Part shown: positions 18,255 to 40,379 of the stretch, one piece after another
Layout of the letters: the number at the start of each line of letters is the position of its first letter
Numbering within the stretch: position 1 is the first letter of the stretch
NCBI GenBank assembly: GCA_947500555.1
Contig: CANMSE010000001.1
Coordinates: 744,001-808,000 of the forward strand
DNA length: 64,000 nucleotides
Reading direction: 5' to 3'
DNA from: an uncultured Fulvivirga sp.
GTDB lineage: Bacteria; Bacteroidota; Bacteroidia; Cytophagales; Cyclobacteriaceae
Made by a program: the position numbers and the translations under genes
Notes under the pieces: generated by a model
The model's input: only the letters and a program-made list of their open reading frames with translations
The model's database searches: none
Told to the model about the DNA's origin: nothing

Positions 18255-20054
18255 TTAAAACGGATACTCGTTTTTATCGATCACGTGATCTGCTATTCTT
18301 CTTCGCGCTTCTTTTAAATTCATAGGCTCGATTTTAGTAAAACGCTTAAGTCCCATCAACATCATTCTTTGCTCATCACCCTCAGCAAAAGCGTTGATAG
18401 CCTCTCGGCCTGCGGCAGCTGCCTTCTCAATAGCTTCATGGAGATATACTCGCATCATATCCGTTTCAATGGCCAAAGCTTCTTCTCCTTTTTGAGATAC
18501 AAGCTTCTCCACTCTTAATAATGTAGACTCAGCTACATACCCTTCGATTAACATGTCTGCCAGATTCATTAAAATTTCCTGCTCGTCTCCCAGTTTTTGC
18601 ATGAATTTTTGAACTGCTGCACCAGCTACCATCAGCCCTGCCTTCTTCAAATTGACTAAGGCTTTCTTCTCTTTAGCAAACAACTCATCTCCATCAGAAG
18701 CTCCAAAATCAGGAATAGACATCAACTCTTTTTGTACAGCCATTGCTGGAGTCATAAGATCGATAGTGCCTTTCATGGCACGTTTTAGCAGCATATCGAT
18801 GCAAAGCATTCGATTGATTTCATTGGTTCCTTCAAAGATTCTGTTAATTCTGGCATCCCTGTAAGCTCTGTCCATAGGACTTTCTGCCGAAAATCCCATT
18901 CCTCCATAAATTTGAACTCCTTCATCAGCACAATAATCCAAGACTTCAGATCCGTGTACTTTTAGAATAGCACATTCAATGGCAAACTCCTCCACAGATT
19001 TAAGTTTAGCCTTTGCCTCATCCATACCTCCTGCAACTAAAGAATCATAGGCATCATCAATATTTTGACCTGCCCTATAGTGAGCTGATTCGGAAGCATA
19101 AGTGATTGTAGCCATTTTGGCTATTTTGTTTTTAATAGCTCCAAAAGTAGAAATAGAAGTTCCAAACTGCTTTCGCTCATTAGAGTAATTGACTGCATTG
19201 TTGATTATTCCTTTGGAACCTCCTACAGCAGCTACTCCCAATTTTATCCGACCAATATTCAGAATATTTACTGCAATCTTAAATCCATTTTCTCTCTCCG
19301 AAAGTAGGTTCTCTATGGGCACCTTACAGTCATTAAAGAAGATCTGTCTGGTAGATGAGCCTTTTATACCCATCTTTTTTTCTTCTTCATTCATGGTTAT
19401 ACCGCCAAAACCCTTCTCTACTATAAAAGCAGAAAGGTTTTTGTCATCATCAATCTTTACAAATACTATATAAACATCCGCAAAACCACCATTGGTGATC
19501 CACATTTTTTGACCATTGATAATGTAGTGCTTTTCATCATCAGAAAGCACCGCCTTAGTCTTTCCAGAATTAGCATCAGAACCTGAATCCGGTTCGGTCA
19601 AACAGTAAGCTGCCTTCCATTCACCACTTGCCAGATTGGGCAGATACTTTTTCTTTTGTTCTTCATTACCATAATAAAGAATCGGGAGCGTACCTATGCC
19701 TGTATGAGCAGATATAGCAACAGCAAAAGAGTGAGCTCCTCCAAAAACCTCAGCAACTAACATGGAGGTATTAAAATTCATCCCGAAACCACCGTATGCC
19801 TCAGGGACACTTGTTCCTAGTAAACCAAGTTCGCCCGCTTTGTCTAGTAGTGATGGCATTAAATCAGGGTTCTCCATTGAATCAATTTCATCGAGCTTGG
19901 GATGAATTTCCTGCTCTATAAAATCATGACAAGTCTGAGCAATCATTTTTTGCTCTTCGCTCCATTCTTCAGGTATAAAGATATTATTGGCCTCTGTTTC
20001 TCGTATCAGAAACTCTCCACCCTTTATTGCATTTTGTTCTTTTACTGCTTCCAT
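18255..20054 (-). CDS. Acyl-CoA dehydrogenase
   Basis: AYCLTEPDSGSDA, KMWITNGGFADVYIVFVK, YSNERKQFGTSI, QIYGGMGFSAESPMDRAYRDARINRIFEGTNEINR. Confidence 0.95.
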   Translation of the reverse strand: MEAVKEQNAIKGGEFLIRETEANNIFIPEEWSEEQKMIAQTCHDFIEQEIHPKLDEIDSMENPDLMPSLLDKAGELGLLGTSVPEAYGGFGMNFNTSMLVAEVFGGAHSFAVAISAHTGIGTLPILYYGNEEQKKKYLPNLASGEWKAAYCLTEPDSGSDANSGKTKAVLSDDEKHYIINGQKMWITNGGFADVYIVFVKIDDDKNLSAFIVEKGFGGITMNEEEKKMGIKGSSTRQIFFNDCKVPIENLLSERENGFKIAVNILNIGRIKLGVAAVGGSKGIINNAVNYSNERKQFGTSISTFGAIKNKIAKMATITYASESAHYRAGQNIDDAYDSLVAGGMDEAKAKLKSVEEFAIECAILKVHGSEVLDYCADEGVQIYGGMGFSAESPMDRAYRDARINRIFEGTNEINRMLCIDMLLKRAMKGTIDLMTPAMAVQKELMSIPDFGASDGDELFAKEKKALVNLKKAGLMVAGAAVQKFMQKLGDEQEILMNLADMLIEGYVAESTLLRVEKLVSQKGEEALAIETDMMRVYLHEAIEKAAAAGREAINAFAEGDEQRMMLMGLKRFTKIEPMNLKEARRRIADHVIDKNEYPF

Positions 20055-23707: not shown

Positions 23708-24160
23708 TTATTTGTTGTTAGTGTTATCGTAAATTTTATTATGATCTATAATCTTATTGATGTCGTCAATCACATCGAAAAAAACATTGAGCTTGGACTC
23801 TGGAATTACTTTCCTCACTTGGTTATTAAATGCGAGAACTGTTGCCCTAGAAACCTCTTTTTTTCGTTTTCCTTCATCAGTAAGAAAAATTCGAACAGAA
23901 CGCCCGTCATTCAAATCTGGCTTTCGATATATGAGCCTTTTCTCTTCCATGTTTTTAAGCACACGGGTCAGGCTTCTTGATTCCAAGCCCATTAAGGGAG
24001 CAATTTTAGTCGCTGGAGTTCCGTCTTTAGAGCTTATATTTAATAATACAAAACCTATAGAAGTGGTAATATCTTGCTTAACTGCCTGTTGATTATACAT
24101 GCGAGAAATTGCATGCCAAGCTGATTTAATATTATGATCAATTGTTTCTTCCCTTTTCAT
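23708..24160 (-). CDS. MarR family transcriptional regulator
   Basis: ATKIAPLMGLESRSLTRVLKNMEEKRLIYRKPDLNDGRSVRIFLTDEGK: MarR winged-helix pattern; 4 nt upstream of the FadB-like gene in the same orientation. Confidence 0.9.
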   Translation of the reverse strand: MKREETIDHNIKSAWHAISRMYNQQAVKQDITTSIGFVLLNISSKDGTPATKIAPLMGLESRSLTRVLKNMEEKRLIYRKPDLNDGRSVRIFLTDEGKRKKEVSRATVLAFNNQVRKVIPESKLNVFFDVIDDINKIIDHNKIYDNTNNK

Positions 24161-24208
24161 TTGTTATCCAAATCGTTCAAATAGATTTTGGGATAACAAA
24201 TATATAAA

Positions 24209-24234
24209 AATTTGTTATGCATGCATAACAAATT
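24209..24234. promoter_or_regulatory. 26-bp perfect palindrome, candidate MarR operator
   Basis: AATTTGTTATGCATGCATAACAAATT; half-site ATAACAAAT also at 24193-24201 and its inverse at 24159-24167. Confidence 0.7.
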
Positions 24235-24324: not shown

Positions 24325-26151
24325 TTGACCAAACTTAAACACTCATCAATAACAAATACCATCTCTACTCTCAGTGAATCTTATTTAATTGAATGTTCCT
24401 GGGAAGTATGTAACCAACTCGGTGGAATCTACACCGTGATTCGGTCCAAAGTTCCTGAATATTCTAAGCAGTGGGGAAATAGGTACTGTTTGATTGGTCC
24501 ACTGGTTGGGCAAAATATCAAAGCCGAAATTGATGAGATTACGGATTTCAATACACCTATTGGTCGTTCCGTTAAAAAGCTAAAGTCTCAGGGGCTTTCT
24601 ATTATTTATGGAACTTGGCTAATAACTGGTCGCCCTACTGTCATACTAATTGATATTGAACCCTCATTAAGTGACATCACCGAGATCAGAAAGCAATATT
24701 ATGCGGAGCATCAACTCATCATACAGGATGATAATCTTCAGAAACAAGTAATGGCCTTTGCCAGTGTCACTCGCACGATAGTAACTACCATTAGCACGGA
24801 ATTAAAAAGTGCTAACCTGATCACCCACTTTCATGAGTGGATGGCCGCTCTTCCTATTTTAGATATTAAAAAGAAACACACGAACATAAAGACAGTCTTC
24901 ACGACACATGCTACCGCTCTTGGAAGGTATGTCGCAATGAATGAAGAGGATTTCTACAACAAACTCAGCTTCTATGACTGGAAAGCAGAGGCCGAAAAAT
25001 ATAATATCCTTCCAATAGCGACCATTGAAAGACTAAGTGCCCAAAATTGTGATGTTTTCACCACGGTGAGTGATGTTACTGCTAAAGAGTGTGAAACCTT
25101 TTATGGCAGGAAACCAGACTTTATAACACCAAATGGTTTGAACATAGAACGATTTGTCGCTTCTCATGAGGTTCAAAACCTACATCAGGAATTTAAAAAT
25201 GAAATCCATGAGTTTGTTATGGGTCACTTTTTTCATTCGTCTCCATTTGACCTTGATAAGACGGTTTACTTTTTTACCTCAGGTAGGTATGAGTTTAGGA
25301 ACAAAGGCTATGATATTACCCTTCAGGCATTAAAAAAGCTGAATCAACAACTGCGAAAGGAGAACGCTGATGTTACTGTTGTCATGTTCTTTATTACCAA
25401 AAGACCTACCTGGTCAATCAACCCTCTTGCGCTTCAGCAAAGAGGTGTGATGGAAGAGATTAGAAGTGTTTGTGCTTCTATCAAAGAGCAGGCAGGAGCT
25501 CGTCTTTTTTTGAGCGCAGCATCTGAAAGTGAAGATTACAGAATTCCTGACCTTAATAATTTAGTCGATGACTACTGGAAATTAAGATATAGAAGAATTT
25601 TGCAATCTTGGAAATCAGACCAATGGCCGTTGGTGGTCACTCATAATATGAAAGACGATGATGGTGACGATATTATCCAATTCATCAGGTCTGCACCTTT
25701 AGTCAATGACCCAAAAGATAAAGTGAAAGTGGTTTATCATCCGGATTTTATCGACTCTACTAATCCTCTATTTGGTATTGACTACAATGAGTTTGTTCGT
25801 GGTTGTCATTTAGGCATATTCCCGAGTTATTATGAGCCCTGGGGCTACACACCTCTTGAATGTTTGGCCCAGGGTGTACCCGCGATAACTTCTGATTTAA
25901 CAGGCTTTGGAGATTATACCGGAGCGAATTTTCCAGGACATGAACAGGCCGGTGCTTATTTACTTAAAAGATCAAAGTTAAAGCCTGACCTGGTAGTAAA
26001 AGAGCTTACAGACATGATGTATAAATTTACCCAACTAAGTAGAAGAGACAGGATTGTGCTGCGCAACAAAGCGGAAGATCTCGCTGAAAACTTTGATTGG
26101 TCTAAGCTCAGCAGGTATTATAATGAAGCTTATGCAAAAGCCATCAAATAA
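24325..26151 (+). CDS. Glycogen synthase, GT3 (eukaryotic GYS)-type
   Basis: CSWEVCNQLGGIYTVIRSKVPEYSKQWGNRYCLIGP, FTTHATALGRY, GIFPSYYEPWGYTPLECLAQGVPAITSDLTGFGDY; TTG start. Confidence 0.88.
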   Translation: MTKLKHSSITNTISTLSESYLIECSWEVCNQLGGIYTVIRSKVPEYSKQWGNRYCLIGPLVGQNIKAEIDEITDFNTPIGRSVKKLKSQGLSIIYGTWLITGRPTVILIDIEPSLSDITEIRKQYYAEHQLIIQDDNLQKQVMAFASVTRTIVTTISTELKSANLITHFHEWMAALPILDIKKKHTNIKTVFTTHATALGRYVAMNEEDFYNKLSFYDWKAEAEKYNILPIATIERLSAQNCDVFTTVSDVTAKECETFYGRKPDFITPNGLNIERFVASHEVQNLHQEFKNEIHEFVMGHFFHSSPFDLDKTVYFFTSGRYEFRNKGYDITLQALKKLNQQLRKENADVTVVMFFITKRPTWSINPLALQQRGVMEEIRSVCASIKEQAGARLFLSAASESEDYRIPDLNNLVDDYWKLRYRRILQSWKSDQWPLVVTHNMKDDDGDDIIQFIRSAPLVNDPKDKVKVVYHPDFIDSTNPLFGIDYNEFVRGCHLGIFPSYYEPWGYTPLECLAQGVPAITSDLTGFGDYTGANFPGHEQAGAYLLKRSKLKPDLVVKELTDMMYKFTQLSRRDRIVLRNKAEDLAENFDWSKLSRYYNEAYAKAIK

Positions 26152-26209: not shown

Positions 26210-28660
26210 ATGATTGGAAATTATTTTAAAGTCGCCTTTCGAAACTTAAAAAAGCATAAATTTTATTCCATCATTAATGTAACAGGTCTTGCTATAGGTA
26301 TAGCCTGTAGTATGCTCATCTATCTTTTTGTGAGTAATGAAATGAGCTATGATCAGTTTCATAAAAACGGTGATAGAGTCTACAGAATAGTTAGACATGG
26401 TTCCTTAAATGGAACAGAGTTTCATCATGCCGTTGCTCCTGCGGCTATGGCATTTAGTATGGTGTCTGAACTTCCCGAAGTTGAGCAAGCTGTAAGGTTT
26501 AAACGTAATGGATCATATTTAGTACGCACTCCAGATGCAAAGGAAAGTGTCCGAGAAAATAAAGTCATCTTTACAGATTCTACTTTTTTTGATCTTTTCT
26601 CTTTTCAATTAATAGAAGGTGATAAAAGTAGTACTCTAACTAGGCCAAATACACTGGCTGTAAGCAAATCCGTGGCTGACAGATATTTTCATGGACAGAG
26701 TGCTTTAAATAAAACTCTCTTACTCGATGGAGATAAAGATTATGAAATAACAGCAGTCTTTGAGGATATGCCCTCAAACTCCCATATACAGTTTGATTTT
26801 TTAATTTCACTTAGCTCATTAGAAGATGCTAATAACCCTATATGGTTGAGCAATAATTTTTACACTTATTTTAGACTTCAAGAAGGAGTGCAACCAGAGA
26901 AGTTTAATACAAAGCTTAATGCATTCTACGAAAGTAAAATAGAACCCGAAATTCAACGCTTTGCGGGTGTAGGGTTGAAAGAGTTTAAGTCGGTAGGTAA
27001 CTTTGTCAATTTAGAGATACAGCGCATCTCCGATATATATCTGACTTCTAATTTCATCTTCGACATTGGACCTGTAGGTAACGAACAGACCGTTTATCTT
27101 TTTATTGCCATTGCCATTTTCATATTGGGTTTGGCTTGCATCAATTTCATGAACCTTTCTACAGCACGATCTGCTACGAGAGCCAAAGAAGTGGGGGTTA
27201 GAAAGGCCCTTGGTTCTCACAAACCGGATCTGATTAAACAGTTTTTGACTGAATCCATTGTTATCAGTATCGGAGCTTTACTCCTAGGGTTTTTGTTGGT
27301 CCTGATGATATTGCCAGCATTCAATTTGTTGGCCGAACGCAATTTGAGTATACCAGCAACCGATATAACTTTTATGAGTTTGATTTTACTTGCTTCAATC
27401 TTTATCGGCATTATTGCTGGATCTTATCCAGCCTTTTTCCTGAGCTCTTTTAAGCCTGCCGATACTCTAAAAGGTAAGTTGGCAATTAGTGGTGGTAATT
27501 CATTACTCAGAAGCTCGCTTGTAGTCTTTCAGTTTTTTGTGAGCATCGTCCTGATTATAGGAACCATCGCCATACAAAGACAATTAAGTTTTATACAAAA
27601 TAAGCAGATAGGCTTTGACAAAGAACAAGTACTTCTAATACAAGACACTTATATGCTGGACGATTCCAGAGCGGCACTTAAAGAGGAAATTGATGATGTT
27701 AGTCCGGTCATTTCTTCTTCCTACAGTGGTTTTATTCCAGTAAGCGGATATAATAGAAATGAAACTATGTTCTGGAAGAAGGGTGTATCTCCAGGGGAAT
27801 CTAACTCAGCTAGTACTCAAGTATGGCTTGTTGATCATAATTATATAAATACTATGGGCATGGAGCTATTAGAGGGTCGTGATTTTGACAGGAATTTAGT
27901 ATCCGATTCTTCTGCTGTTATTCTAAATGAAGAGGCACTTAGAAAGTTTGGTTTTAAGGAGAATGGTGAACGGTTCATTCAGACCTATGCCTTTGATAAG
28001 GAAAATGGGAAGGTTCTACCTGAAGAGTATGATACCTATAAAGTTATTGGTGTATTAAAAGATTTTCATTTTGAATCCCTAAAAGAAACCGTAGCTCCTC
28101 TAGCTTTAAAACTGGGGAAAAGTACCAGCGTTTTGTCAGTAAGACTCGCTACTAATGATTATAAAAGTGTCATTAGCCAGGTAGAAAAAAAATGGAAAAA
28201 ATTCGGATCAGGCCTTCCATTTAGTTACAACTTCATGGATGATCAGTTTGATAAGATGTATAAAAATGAAGCACGTCTAGTAACGATTTTTGCTGTTTTC
28301 GCTACACTTGCTATTATCATTGGTTGTCTTGGCTTATTTGCATTAGCGACTTTTATGGCTGAACAAAAGATTAAAGAGATTGGAATTCGAAAAGTATTAG
28401 GTGCTAACGTAACAGAGCTGGTACTCATGTTAACAAAGAATTTTAGCAAACTGATTGTTGTAGCTTTTGTTTTAGCTTCTCCACTTGCATACTGGTTGCT
28501 TTCAATCTGGTTGGAAAGTTATATTTATAGAATCGAACTTGGCTGGGACCTTTTCATTTTGGCCGGAGTCATTGCTTTCGTAATTGCATGGGTTACCGTA
28601 AGCTATCAGTCGATCAGAGCTGCATCAAGTAATCCTGTAGATTCTCTACGAAATGATTGA
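26210..28660 (+). CDS. ABC transporter permease (MacB_PCD/FtsX type)
   Basis: NYFKVAFRNLKKHKFYSIINVTGLAIGIACSMLIY start, two FtsX-like blocks, C-terminal AASSNPVDSLRND. Confidence 0.9.
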   Translation: MIGNYFKVAFRNLKKHKFYSIINVTGLAIGIACSMLIYLFVSNEMSYDQFHKNGDRVYRIVRHGSLNGTEFHHAVAPAAMAFSMVSELPEVEQAVRFKRNGSYLVRTPDAKESVRENKVIFTDSTFFDLFSFQLIEGDKSSTLTRPNTLAVSKSVADRYFHGQSALNKTLLLDGDKDYEITAVFEDMPSNSHIQFDFLISLSSLEDANNPIWLSNNFYTYFRLQEGVQPEKFNTKLNAFYESKIEPEIQRFAGVGLKEFKSVGNFVNLEIQRISDIYLTSNFIFDIGPVGNEQTVYLFIAIAIFILGLACINFMNLSTARSATRAKEVGVRKALGSHKPDLIKQFLTESIVISIGALLLGFLLVLMILPAFNLLAERNLSIPATDITFMSLILLASIFIGIIAGSYPAFFLSSFKPADTLKGKLAISGGNSLLRSSLVVFQFFVSIVLIIGTIAIQRQLSFIQNKQIGFDKEQVLLIQDTYMLDDSRAALKEEIDDVSPVISSSYSGFIPVSGYNRNETMFWKKGVSPGESNSASTQVWLVDHNYINTMGMELLEGRDFDRNLVSDSSAVILNEEALRKFGFKENGERFIQTYAFDKENGKVLPEEYDTYKVIGVLKDFHFESLKETVAPLALKLGKSTSVLSVRLATNDYKSVISQVEKKWKKFGSGLPFSYNFMDDQFDKMYKNEARLVTIFAVFATLAIIIGCLGLFALATFMAEQKIKEIGIRKVLGANVTELVLMLTKNFSKLIVVAFVLASPLAYWLLSIWLESYIYRIELGWDLFILAGVIAFVIAWVTVSYQSIRAASSNPVDSLRND

Positions 28661-28842: not shown

Positions 28843-29181
28843 ATGCATAGCCCTGAATTACTAAAAGGAACGCTTCAAACTATTATTCTAAAGCTACTTG
28901 CCGACCACGGAAAAATGTATGGATATGAAATCACTCAAAAAGTGAAAGAACTTTCTGATGGTTCACTTGCCTTGACGGAAGGCGCGCTCTATCCTACATT
29001 ACATAAGCTGGAAGCCGAGGGTCTACTCTCAACTGAAAAAGTGAGCCTTGGCAAACGGGTTAGAAAATACTATACACTTACAGAAATTGGTAGAAGTAGC
29101 ATACAAAAAAGGATCGAAGATTTCGAATCCTTTATAAGCACAATGTTCAATGTATTACAATTGAGACCTATCGGCTCATGA
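28843..29181 (+). CDS. PadR family transcriptional regulator
   Basis: LLKGTLQTIILKLLADHGKMYGYEITQKVKELSDGSLALTEGALYPTLHKLEAEGLL. Confidence 0.93.
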   Translation: MHSPELLKGTLQTIILKLLADHGKMYGYEITQKVKELSDGSLALTEGALYPTLHKLEAEGLLSTEKVSLGKRVRKYYTLTEIGRSSIQKRIEDFESFISTMFNVLQLRPIGS

Positions 29182-31871
29182 CATTGACTGAAGAAAATAT
29201 CAATTACATCATCACAGATATAAACTATCGAGGAATCGTTGATGATAAGCTTGGTGAAGAGCTGGTTGACCATATATGTGTTTTAGTTGAAGAAAAAATG
29301 AAACATGGTGAGCGATTCATTGAGGCTTATGATAGTGTCATATCTGATTTTGGAAGTGATTCAAAACTCCTCGAATTACAAAATAAGACGGTCGAATACT
29401 CTAATAACAACACTCTGATTATGATTAACAATTATTTTAAAATCGCTTTTAGAAACATAACAAAGCACAAGTTCTATTCATCAATCAACATTTTAGGTTT
29501 GTCCATTGGTGTTGCCTGTAGCTTGCTCATATTTCTATTTGTTTCAAATGAGATGAGCTATGATAAATTCCATTTGAATAGTGATAACATATACAGAATA
29601 GTTCGGCATGGTAAGTTTGCTGACAATGAATTTCACTACCCTGTTGGTCCGGCTCCTTTGGCTAACGGACTGATCACAGAAATACCTGAGGTCGAAAATG
29701 CTGTTCGGTTTAGATCAAGTGGTACTTCTCTTGTCAGGGCTTCAGGTTCAAGTGAAAGCTTTAAAGAGACCAGACTGATTTATACGGATTCTACATTTTT
29801 TGATCTATTTTCTTTTTCAATATTGGAAGGAGATGCCGCAAAAGCTCTCACTCGCCCAAATACTGTTGCAATTAGTCAAAAAATGGCTGATAAGTACTAT
29901 CCAAATCAAAACCCGATTGGTCACTCATTGGTACTGGACAACAGCCAAAATTTTGAAATAACTGCCGTCTATCAAGACATGCCTGAAAATTCACATTTGC
30001 AACTGGACTTTTTGCTGTCTATGGCTTCAACGGAGCAAGCCAATAATTCCAATTGGCTAAGCAATAATTTTTTTACTTATATAGCAATCAAAGAAGGAAC
30101 AAACATTGAAGAGGTATTATCAAAAATTCAATCCCTTTACGAAAAAAAATCAGAACCTGCACTTATTCAATATATAGGCTTGTCTATAGCTGAGTTTAAA
30201 GAGGCTGGCAACAGTATAGTGCTGGAGCTTCAACCTTTAGCTGATGTCTATCTTTCATCGGATTTTATTTTCGACATAAATACGATGAGCAGTAAAGACA
30301 ATGTTTATTTATTTATCGCCATAGCAATATTCATTCTTTTGTTGGCCTGCATCAATTTTATGAACTTGTCAACGGCACGTTCGGCTAATCGAGCAAAAGA
30401 AGTAGGAATTCGAAAAGCATTGGGATCGTACAAATCACATCTAGTCAGGCAGTTCTTAACCGAATCTATTATCATGAGCTTAATAGCTTATGTTATTGGT
30501 TTGGCTTTAGTGTCGCTGACACTTCCGATGTTTAATCAACTAGCTGACAAGCAACTTACTCTTCCTTTCTATGACGGAGTATTTCTATTATCACTTTTTG
30601 GAGCCGCTATTATCACTGGTACTCTTGCGGGAATTTATCCTGCATTTTTTCTTAGCGCCTTTAGACCAATAAATACGCTTAAAGGTAAATTGGCATTAGG
30701 TTCCGGGAATTCGCTTGTTAGAAGTGGTTTAGTAGTTTTTCAATTTTTTATCAGCATTTTATTGATTATCGGAACTTTAGCGATCAATAGACAGCTTCAG
30801 TTCATTCAAAATAAAAGGATAGGTTTTCAAAAGGAGCAAGTTCTCCTAGTCAATGATCCATATATGCTTGGTGAGTCGCGAGATTCGTTTAAAAAAGAGG
30901 TTTTGCAGCTAAGTACTGTATTATCGGCTTCTTACAGCGGCTTTTTACCAGTAAATGGATATAACAGAAGCGACAATACTTACTGGGAAAAAGGAGTTTC
31001 TCCGGATGAAACAAATACCAAAAGTACTCAGATGTGGTCCGTGGATGACGACTATATTGAAACTATGAAAATGGAACTGATATTGGGAAGAGATTTCAGT
31101 TCCGATATTGCTTCTGATTCTTCAGCTGTAGTCTTAAATGAGCGGGCAATGAAAGAGTTTGGCTTTGATAATATTGAAGATAAGTGGATTCAAACTTACG
31201 GTTATGACCAAACCACCGGTGTGGTATTAGCTGACCAATTGGTAGACTATAAAGTTATAGGAGTTGTCAAAAATTTTCATTTTGAATCAATGAAAGAATC
31301 TATAGGCCCTCTCGCTATGCGTATGGACAGAAGTACCGGTATTTTATCAGTCCGACTGTCTACAACAGATTACAGCAGTACAATTGATCAAATAGAGAAG
31401 GTTTGGCAAAAGTTTGGCTCCGGATTGCCCTTCAATTATGATTTCATGGATGATCAATTTAACAAAATGTATAGTGCAGAAGCCAGACTAGGTTCTATTT
31501 TTCAAGTTTTTGCCGGGCTTGCAATATTTATTGGCTGTCTTGGACTTTTCGCCCTGGCTACATTTATGGCCGAGCAAAGAATTAAGGAAATAGGAATCAG
31601 AAAAGTGCTAGGGGCGAGTGTTAAGATAATTGTAATGATGCTTACCAAACAATTTACAAAATTGGTCATACTCGCCTTTATTTTAGCGGGACCAGTAGCA
31701 TGGTGGTTAATGAGCAGGTGGTTAGAAGCATATACTTACAAAATCAGTCTCGGTATTGATTTATTCTTGATGGCAGGTATTGCCGCCTTCAGCATTGCAT
31801 GGCTAACCGTAAGCTATCAATCTATTCGAGCTGCCTTAAGTAATCCTGTAGATTCTTTGAGAAGTGAATAG
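29178..31871 (+). CDS. ABC transporter permease (FtsX type) with about 81-aa N-terminal prefix domain
   Basis: Residues 82 onward closely parallel the 26210-28660 product; ATGA overlap with padR. Confidence 0.9.
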   Translation: MTLTEENINYIITDINYRGIVDDKLGEELVDHICVLVEEKMKHGERFIEAYDSVISDFGSDSKLLELQNKTVEYSNNNTLIMINNYFKIAFRNITKHKFYSSINILGLSIGVACSLLIFLFVSNEMSYDKFHLNSDNIYRIVRHGKFADNEFHYPVGPAPLANGLITEIPEVENAVRFRSSGTSLVRASGSSESFKETRLIYTDSTFFDLFSFSILEGDAAKALTRPNTVAISQKMADKYYPNQNPIGHSLVLDNSQNFEITAVYQDMPENSHLQLDFLLSMASTEQANNSNWLSNNFFTYIAIKEGTNIEEVLSKIQSLYEKKSEPALIQYIGLSIAEFKEAGNSIVLELQPLADVYLSSDFIFDINTMSSKDNVYLFIAIAIFILLLACINFMNLSTARSANRAKEVGIRKALGSYKSHLVRQFLTESIIMSLIAYVIGLALVSLTLPMFNQLADKQLTLPFYDGVFLLSLFGAAIITGTLAGIYPAFFLSAFRPINTLKGKLALGSGNSLVRSGLVVFQFFISILLIIGTLAINRQLQFIQNKRIGFQKEQVLLVNDPYMLGESRDSFKKEVLQLSTVLSASYSGFLPVNGYNRSDNTYWEKGVSPDETNTKSTQMWSVDDDYIETMKMELILGRDFSSDIASDSSAVVLNERAMKEFGFDNIEDKWIQTYGYDQTTGVVLADQLVDYKVIGVVKNFHFESMKESIGPLAMRMDRSTGILSVRLSTTDYSSTIDQIEKVWQKFGSGLPFNYDFMDDQFNKMYSAEARLGSIFQVFAGLAIFIGCLGLFALATFMAEQRIKEIGIRKVLGASVKIIVMMLTKQFTKLVILAFILAGPVAWWLMSRWLEAYTYKISLGIDLFLMAGIAAFSIAWLTVSYQSIRAALSNPVDSLRSE

Positions 31872-31878
31872 CTTTTTC

Positions 31879-33651
31879 TTAAGTCAGTTCAGCGTAAATT
31901 GAATCAACCAATGGTTGATATCTAGAATAGATATTTTTTCTTTTTAACTTAAGGGTGGGAGTTAGTTCGCCTCCATCAATGGTCCAAGGTTCTGACAGAA
32001 TTTTTATCTTTTTGACCTTCTCATATTGAGCAAAAGAATTATTGATCTTGTTCATTTCCTTATCAAACTTTTTTTGCACCCTTTCGTGATCAATCATTTC
32101 TTTATCGGTGGTATATTCAATTTCTTTAATTGCACACCATTCTTTTAATGCCTCAAAAGATGGCACTACTAAAGCAGCTGGGAACTTTTGCCCTTCGCCA
32201 ACCACCATTATTTGTTCGATTATTACTGACTCTTTGAATTTATTCTCCAACACCTGTGGAGCTATGTATTTACCTCCGGAGGTTTTAAACATTTCTTTTT
32301 TTCTATCAGTAATTTTCAGGTATCTGTTTTCGACAAGCTCTCCAATATCACCTGTATGAAACCACCCATCTTTATCCATCACTTCAGCTGTTGCATCAGG
32401 TCTATTGTAGTAACCCATCATAACATTAGGCCCTTTCACCATTATCTCTCCATCTTCCGCAAACTTTACTTCAACGTCAGGAAGCAGGGGACCAACACAT
32501 CCTATTCTTACATCATCAGGGTCATCAGTCGTAAAGCTTACTCCTGGTGATGTTTCAGTCAAGCCATACGCTTCAAGAATTTTAATTTGTCCAGCCCAGA
32601 ATATTCGTGCGAGCCGCGGTTGTAATGCAGCTGCACCAGAAACAATAAATTCTACTTCTCCACCGAGTGCTTCACGCCATTTACTAAAAATTAATTTGTT
32701 AGCTAAGGACAATCTCAATTTATACCATGCGCTGTAATTAAGGTTTGGCTCAAAGTCCTGACCCAATCTGATAGCCCAGAAAAAAAGCGCTTTTTTCAAG
32801 CCGGAAAGTGCATAACCTTTAGCAATAATTTTGTCATATACTTTTTCAAGAAGTCTGGGTACAGTTGCAAAAAAATGTGGTTTCACTTCCTTTAGGTTTT
32901 CACCTATTGTGTCCATACTTTCAGCATAGTAAATGGACACTCCCATTCTCATATAAGTATATAGTCCTGTACGTTCAAAAATATGGCATAATGGTAGAAA
33001 GCTCAACGTCCGAAAACCTGGTCTGACAACCGGAAAAATACTCTCGACTGAAGCACTGTTTGACAATATGTTTTTATGAGACAGCATTACACCTTTCGGG
33101 TTTCCAGTAGTACCGGATGTATAAATGATAGTTGCCAGATCCTCTGTTTGAATCCCAGATTTTAAGGATTCAATTATTTTTTGGTCTTCCTCACTTGGTT
33201 CCTTTAAAATCGATTTCCAAAAGTCTTTGTTATCGACTTCATCAAAAAGAAATAGACGCACCTCATTTTGAAATTTGTCTTTGACCTGCACAATCTTGTT
33301 GTAAATATCCTCTTCTCCGCAAAAAACTAATTTTACGTTGGCATCATTGACAATAAAGGCATAATCTTCTGGAGTTGAGTTAGGATACATTGGCACGCCT
33401 ATCGCTCCTATTTGAGATAACGCAAAATCAGCAAAAACCCACTCCGGTCGATTAAAAGAAACTATTCCGACACGATCCCCTTTTTGAATACCCAGCTCTA
33501 GTAGGCCAGTACTTAGGGCTGTGCTTATCGTTTTTATATCAGCAGTGGAATATCTAACCCATTCGTCATCAGCCTTATTGGCTAAGGCCGTTTCAAGAGG
33601 GTTTTCATTTAGCTGATATTCTAAACAGTCAAATAAACGTTTAATCTCCAT
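31879..33651 (-). CDS. Long-chain acyl-CoA synthetase (AMP-binding)
   Basis: TIIYTSGTTGNPKGVMLSH, LEAYGLTETSPGVSF, GWFHTGDIGEL, ITDRKKEMFKTSGGKYIAP. Confidence 0.95.
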   Translation of the reverse strand: MEIKRLFDCLEYQLNENPLETALANKADDEWVRYSTADIKTISTALSTGLLELGIQKGDRVGIVSFNRPEWVFADFALSQIGAIGVPMYPNSTPEDYAFIVNDANVKLVFCGEEDIYNKIVQVKDKFQNEVRLFLFDEVDNKDFWKSILKEPSEEDQKIIESLKSGIQTEDLATIIYTSGTTGNPKGVMLSHKNILSNSASVESIFPVVRPGFRTLSFLPLCHIFERTGLYTYMRMGVSIYYAESMDTIGENLKEVKPHFFATVPRLLEKVYDKIIAKGYALSGLKKALFFWAIRLGQDFEPNLNYSAWYKLRLSLANKLIFSKWREALGGEVEFIVSGAAALQPRLARIFWAGQIKILEAYGLTETSPGVSFTTDDPDDVRIGCVGPLLPDVEVKFAEDGEIMVKGPNVMMGYYNRPDATAEVMDKDGWFHTGDIGELVENRYLKITDRKKEMFKTSGGKYIAPQVLENKFKESVIIEQIMVVGEGQKFPAALVVPSFEALKEWCAIKEIEYTTDKEMIDHERVQKKFDKEMNKINNSFAQYEKVKKIKILSEPWTIDGGELTPTLKLKRKNIYSRYQPLVDSIYAELT

Positions 33652-40323: not shown

Positions 40324-40339
40324 TGTTCCACGTGGAACT
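40324..40339. promoter_or_regulatory. parS-like centromere site 1
   Basis: TGTTCCACGTGGAACT; 14-bp perfect palindrome GTTCCACGTGGAAC at 40325-40338, close to the parS consensus TGTTTCACGTGAAACA. Confidence 0.8.
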
Positions 40340-40361
40340 TTAACACTTTAGATCATCTTGA

Positions 40362-40377
40362 TGTTCCACGTGGAACA
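40362..40377. promoter_or_regulatory. parS-like centromere site 2
   Basis: TGTTCCACGTGGAACA, perfect 16-bp palindrome (18 bp with flanking a/t), 38 bp centre-to-centre from site 1. Confidence 0.83.
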
Positions 40378-40379
40378 TA

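Follow-up and report, generated by a model that had tools for sequence, protein, structure and literature searches.

A 26-bp palindrome in front of the marR gene of a Fulvivirga-like member of the Cytophagales is very probably the operator through which a MarR-family regulator represses its own operon, marR–fadN–fadA–fadE. The DNA analysed, called the window here, is a 64-kb stretch of this genome, which was placed by its closest named relatives; the MarR protein is 88% identical to that of Fulvivirga lutimaris. An earlier note, made from the letters of the window alone, had proposed that MarR autoregulates marR together with the fadB-like (here fadN), fadA and acyl-CoA dehydrogenase (fadE) genes, and had named loss of the palindrome from relatives with the same gene order as evidence against it. 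In the relatives, operator and gene order are conserved together, and autoregulation stands as the probable reading of the sequences; the definition of the operator by its half-sites does not stand.

The operon and its regulator

The four genes follow one another on the minus strand from 24160 to 18255, separated by gaps of 4, 39 and 31 bp (Table 1). Their domains make up a beta-oxidation module, in which the multifunctional protein and FadE resemble the fadNAE type of Gram-positive bacteria more closely than E. coli FadB/FadE. The regulator has a MarR winged-helix domain (PF01047, 41.6 bits; cut-off 24.6) with a strongly conserved recognition region, GTpATKIAPl.GlE.RSLtR. Domain searches matched MarR-type and related winged-helix domains only, and found no TetR-type DNA-binding domain. 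The NCBIfam equivalog cut-offs of the named MarR subfamilies (HpaR, OhrR, SlyA, MarR, BilQ) are not reached: the top score is to HpaR, with 38 bits for a cut-off of 121.

Table 1. Features of the marR–fad promoter and operon (window coordinates)
Feature	Position	Strand	Remarks
Conserved operator core TATGCATGCATA	24216..24227		about -35 to -24 of the marR–fad promoter
26-bp perfect palindrome	24209..24234		proposed MarR operator
Bacteroidota -7 promoter element TATATTTG	24197..24204	-	11 bp from the core
Third half-site of the earlier note	24193..24201		overlaps the -7 box; probably no operator
Predicted transcription start region of marR–fadN–fadA–fadE, about 24192	24190..24193	-	inferred from the position of the -7 element
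Fourth half-site of the earlier note	24159..24167		marR start-codon context; probably coincidence
marR, MarR-family regulator, 150 aa, proposed repressor	23708..24160	-	Pfam MarR
fadN-like 3-hydroxyacyl-CoA dehydrogenase / enoyl-CoA hydratase, 800 aa	21301..23703	-	Pfam 3HCDH, ECH
fadA thiolase, 391 aa	20086..21261	-	NCBIfam TIGR01930 above cut-off
fadE acyl-CoA dehydrogenase, 599 aa, Bacillus type	18255..20054	-	NCBIfam NF058590, 813 bits (cut-off 600)

A MarR match is present in 142 of the 149 genomes of the family. For comparison of the upstream DNA, 90 marR loci were read, this genome included: 30 of them, taken first, are the best protein matches, and the remaining 60 are mostly one per genus, a non-random sample that covers most genera. 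In 89 of these loci the gene that directly follows marR is fadN, and fadA and fadE are also retained in most of the longer named loci.

Two other features of the window are recorded in passing. Two GTTCCACGTGGAAC palindromes lie 37 bp apart at 40324-40378, just upstream of mnmG; the pair matches the parS (ParB-binding) consensus and may mark a centromere-like site. Nearer the operon are two long, related FtsX/MacB-like permease genes (26210-28660 and 29178-31871) with the gene of a PadR-like regulator in between (28843-29181).

The conserved core of the palindrome

The palindrome reads AATTTGTTATGCATGCATAACAAATT at 24209-24234, perfect over all 26 positions as the earlier note had claimed. No perfect palindrome in the window is longer, and the runner-up has 18 bp. 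First-order Markov simulations produce 0.25 palindromes of 18 bp and 0.05 of 20 bp per 64 kb, with none longer; the 26-bp palindrome is real and far above chance.

Conservation among relatives is concentrated in the 12-mer TATGCATGCATA, which is exact upstream of marR in 73 of the 90 loci and present with at most one mismatch in 87, while the best match in shuffled upstream sequences (n=1800) has two mismatches. The shorter TGCATGCA is exact in 81/90. The flanks are looser than the core: wTrK precedes it and MyAw follows, which gives the extended consensus wTrKTATGCATGCATAMyAw. Where the core does depart from the common form, it stays dyad-symmetric, as in TCGGCATGCCGA (L087, L215, L217), TCTGCATGCAGA (L218, L220, L221) and TATGCGCGCATA (L222); this retention of symmetry in the variants argues for a site that would be read by a dimer. 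An apparent coupling, seen in one family, of operator changes to MarR residues 65 and 90 was rejected when it failed with others added; the residues seen with changed operators also occur in another family with a normal core.

The earlier note had described the operator as two half-sites around a free N6 spacer, a pattern that does not survive the comparison: relatives conserve the centre above all, and the core consists of that N6 plus three bases on either side. The genome-wide search that the note had suggested, run with the half-site–N6 pattern at up to three mismatches, returned 23 other matches, each with the full three mismatches (12 for the reversed-pattern control), and no second good site. 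There is a lesson here in the reading of palindromes, the invariant part being the apparent spacer.

Promoter geometry

The -7 element of Bacteroidota promoters has the consensus TAnnTTTG and occupies positions -12 to -5 (PMC6847099, PMC9723704). Because a -7 box is found at 24204-24197 on the minus strand, the core falls at roughly -35 to -24, where it covers the -33 element, and the palindromic operator would thereby lie within marR's own predicted promoter. TAnnTTTG or a close variant follows the core in most relatives, the commonest spacing being 11–12 bp. With the core covering this region, a bound repressor would stand in the way of RNA polymerase.

Several genera, and one species from outside the family, have tandem cores upstream of marR, either exact or as TGCATGCA and spaced by about 29 bp (L034, L037, L040-L045, L049-L051, L054, L060, L061, L079 and L196).

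Sites away from marR

A search of the 149 family genomes for the core together with the box was positive in 113, and the reversed-pattern control in two. For target identification, 36 listed sites away from marR were fetched. Of these, 14 stand in front of fadE orthologs (64–69% identical), seven in front of a different acyl-CoA dehydrogenase (about 380 aa) and four upstream of the gene for a 4Fe-4S membrane protein; the remainder precede genes for an aldehyde dehydrogenase, for a nitronate monooxygenase-like protein and for a fatty-acid hydroxylase, as well as unrelated genes. At most of the dehydrogenase sites, core and box are again 10–13 bp apart. Six detached fadE loci (L116, L117, L121, L134, L135, L137) carry two cores 37–39 bp apart, with a clear -7 box between them in five. 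These sites are the strongest evidence for function because they are independent of an adjacent marR; to judge from the genes they precede, they tie the core to fatty-acid oxidation independently of marR. In two congeners (L112, L113, genus g10) a core lies 52 bp upstream of an aldehyde dehydrogenase gene, which suggests that the regulon there reaches fatty aldehydes.

The layout extends beyond the family. Core and full box were found in 22 of 297 genomes drawn across the phylum, and outside this genome there are 23 matches, 18 of them directly before a MarR gene (39–50% identical) followed by fadN, nearly all in a single other family of the class and the remainder elsewhere. The same operator layout is thus repeated before marR–fadN in other families of the class.

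A second site in this genome

A sequence-only covariance model built from 38 operators finds only two places in this genome better than E=0.8. One is the marR–fad promoter itself (E=2.3e-8, a value inflated by the presence of its own sequence in the model); the other, with a sequence outside the model, is G000:C1:814568-814602 (about 2985-3019 of L148; E=6e-4). This second site lies about 6.6 kb past the end of the window and 257 bp upstream of the first gene of a pair, which encodes a membrane Fe-S protein; the second gene is HdrB-like. A core with at most two mismatches is found 256–348 bp upstream of the Fe-S gene in 23 of 30 relatives; shuffled Fe-S upstreams reach two mismatches in 14 of 600 cases and fewer in none. 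A tRNA-Phe gene on the opposite strand sits between the core and the Fe-S gene. The -7 box is recognisable at 8 of the 23 loci, 17–21 bp from the core, and the mechanism at the Fe-S gene may differ from that at the marR promoter. From its make-up, the Fe-S/HdrB-like pair probably passes electrons from acyl-CoA oxidation via ETF to the quinone pool. Beside the core at this locus, which was read in the relatives' loci L152-L179 as well, many relatives share a AATTTAAAATCAATCTAA element that resembles a Fur-type 7-1-7 box.

Other candidate sites in the genome were set aside. The acyl-CoA synthetase gene at 31879, where the earlier note had suggested looking, has no operator site. An exact core at G000:C4:62265 lies inside a universal-stress-protein-like frame and is put down to chance; one-mismatch sites near a catalase-peroxidase gene (L150), near a TonB receptor gene (L151) and inside a frame (L149) have no link to fatty acids and are absent from the profile-scan hits.

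Alternative readings of the palindrome

In the model of the earlier note, MarR binds two nested inverted repeats made up of four ATAACAAAT half-sites, which control both marR–fad and the divergent glycogen synthase. The two additional half-sites are where the note had placed them, ATAACAAAT at 24193-24201 and its reverse, ATTTGTTAT, at 24159-24167 overlapping the marR start codon, and the outer pair even extends to 14-nt arms with 93% complementarity; but conservation lies at the centre of the palindrome and not in the 9-mer, which is not specific to the four named places because a further copy occurs at 24349 within the glycogen synthase frame. The third half-site shares ATTTG with the -7 box, and the GCATGC centre is absent there. 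TATATTTGTTA is common within Fulvivirga, but TAnnTTTGTTA is present in only 10 of 120 operators and is frequent among close relatives only. The half-site at the start codon, and with it the outer pair, is confined to this genome among the same 120 loci, a set that includes loci fetched by the motif itself. Nor does the outer repeat form a conserved 5' leader hairpin: none is common to the leaders of congeners, and here the repeat begins before the predicted transcription start. An Rfam scan of the window gave no matches. The proposed link of lipid catabolism to glycogen storage fares no better, since a divergent glycogen synthase is the neighbour at one of the 90 loci, this one (among named loci it is found in F. 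lutimaris), and the plus side has no well-placed promoter box, the plus-strand profile match covering the operator and stopping short of the -7 box. A shared effect on glgA in this one species is at most a remote possibility, with nothing pointing to it, and the nested-repeat arrangement as a whole is very improbable.

Activation by MarR from the same site, alone or combined with repression, is unlikely. MarR-type activators exist (PMC5487221), and the spacing at the Fe-S gene is 17–21 bp (where the box can be recognised) versus 11–12 bp; against this, the core lies over the -33 region at the marR, fadE and acyl-CoA dehydrogenase promoters, and operators flank the box on both sides at five fadE promoters, a roadblock layout. 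There is scarcely any chance that the palindrome is instead a terminator, a structural DNA element or the site of a factor other than MarR, as its length and perfection and the presence of the core near the tRNA-Phe gene might suggest: it lacks a G+C-rich stem, lies upstream of the operon's promoter box, tracks marR–fadN across families and recurs at fatty-acid genes, and a role for the second core as tRNA-Phe terminator was rejected, the tRNA gene having a separate hairpin of its own between itself and the core in this genome. Another factor always encoded beside the operon could read the core, but the core closely tracks the presence of marR and the function of the targets.

Proposed mechanism

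We infer binding of MarR to the core, repression rather than activation, and the ligand, as follows. A MarR dimer would bind the symmetric TATGCATGCATA in its own promoter, where it would cover the -33 region just upstream of the -7 box, and by excluding RNA polymerase would keep marR, fadN, fadA and fadE low. When fatty acids are present, MarR would be released by an intermediate of the pathway, for which an acyl-CoA thioester is the likeliest candidate, and the beta-oxidation operon would be expressed. Relatives appear to place the same operator on other fatty-acid oxidation promoters. The ligand is perhaps an acyl-CoA, a guess with somewhat better than even prospects that is made because of pathway logic and a weak similarity to CouR, which has a CoA-thioester ligand. 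Most MarR relatives of known ligand do not bind acyl-CoA.

Relation to known systems and significance

In Bacillus subtilis, FadR, a TetR-family protein, is the local repressor of fadNAE. The enzyme set is the same here (FadE fits the family model, and the multifunctional protein is similar to Gram-positive FadB/FadN) and so is the logic of a local repressor, whereas the regulator that heads this operon is of the MarR family and the operator is different. CouR of Rhodococcus jostii RHA1 (PDB 3FM5, 5CYV) is a MarR repressor released by p-coumaroyl-CoA (PMC4737184). It shares the MarR fold, is among the best PDB sequence matches, though a weak one (33 bits), and has a single inverted-repeat operator over the -35 region of a catabolic operon (PMC4737184); it differs in pathway, operator and phylum, and release by a CoA thioester, shown for CouR, is putative here. 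FabT of Streptococcus pneumoniae is likewise a MarR-family regulator of lipid metabolism, which senses acyl-ACP, but it controls synthesis and not degradation, and acyl-ACP strengthens its DNA binding (PMC5487221).

An autoregulating MarR repressor is of a known, conventional kind, and the regulator–operator pair is widespread among relatives. No published description of the motif, a named regulator or the regulon was found in the open-access literature searched, a body that leaves most subscription journals outside. The fatty-acid oxidation genes of Flavobacterium psychrophilum rise strongly in fish mucus and plasma, in a report whose main text does not mention MarR (PMC9723704).

A broader proposal is tentative: that this unnamed MarR senses acyl-CoA and governs fatty-acid oxidation generally throughout the class of Fulvivirga, acting through a near-invariant TATGCATGCATA in two promoter geometries, one blocking over -33 at beta-oxidation genes and one farther upstream, perhaps activating, at Fe-S electron-transfer genes. 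How fatty-acid oxidation is switched on in Bacteroidota seems little described. The pair, with its core, geometry and list of targets, is directly testable, and the motif can be used to annotate the regulon in many genomes.
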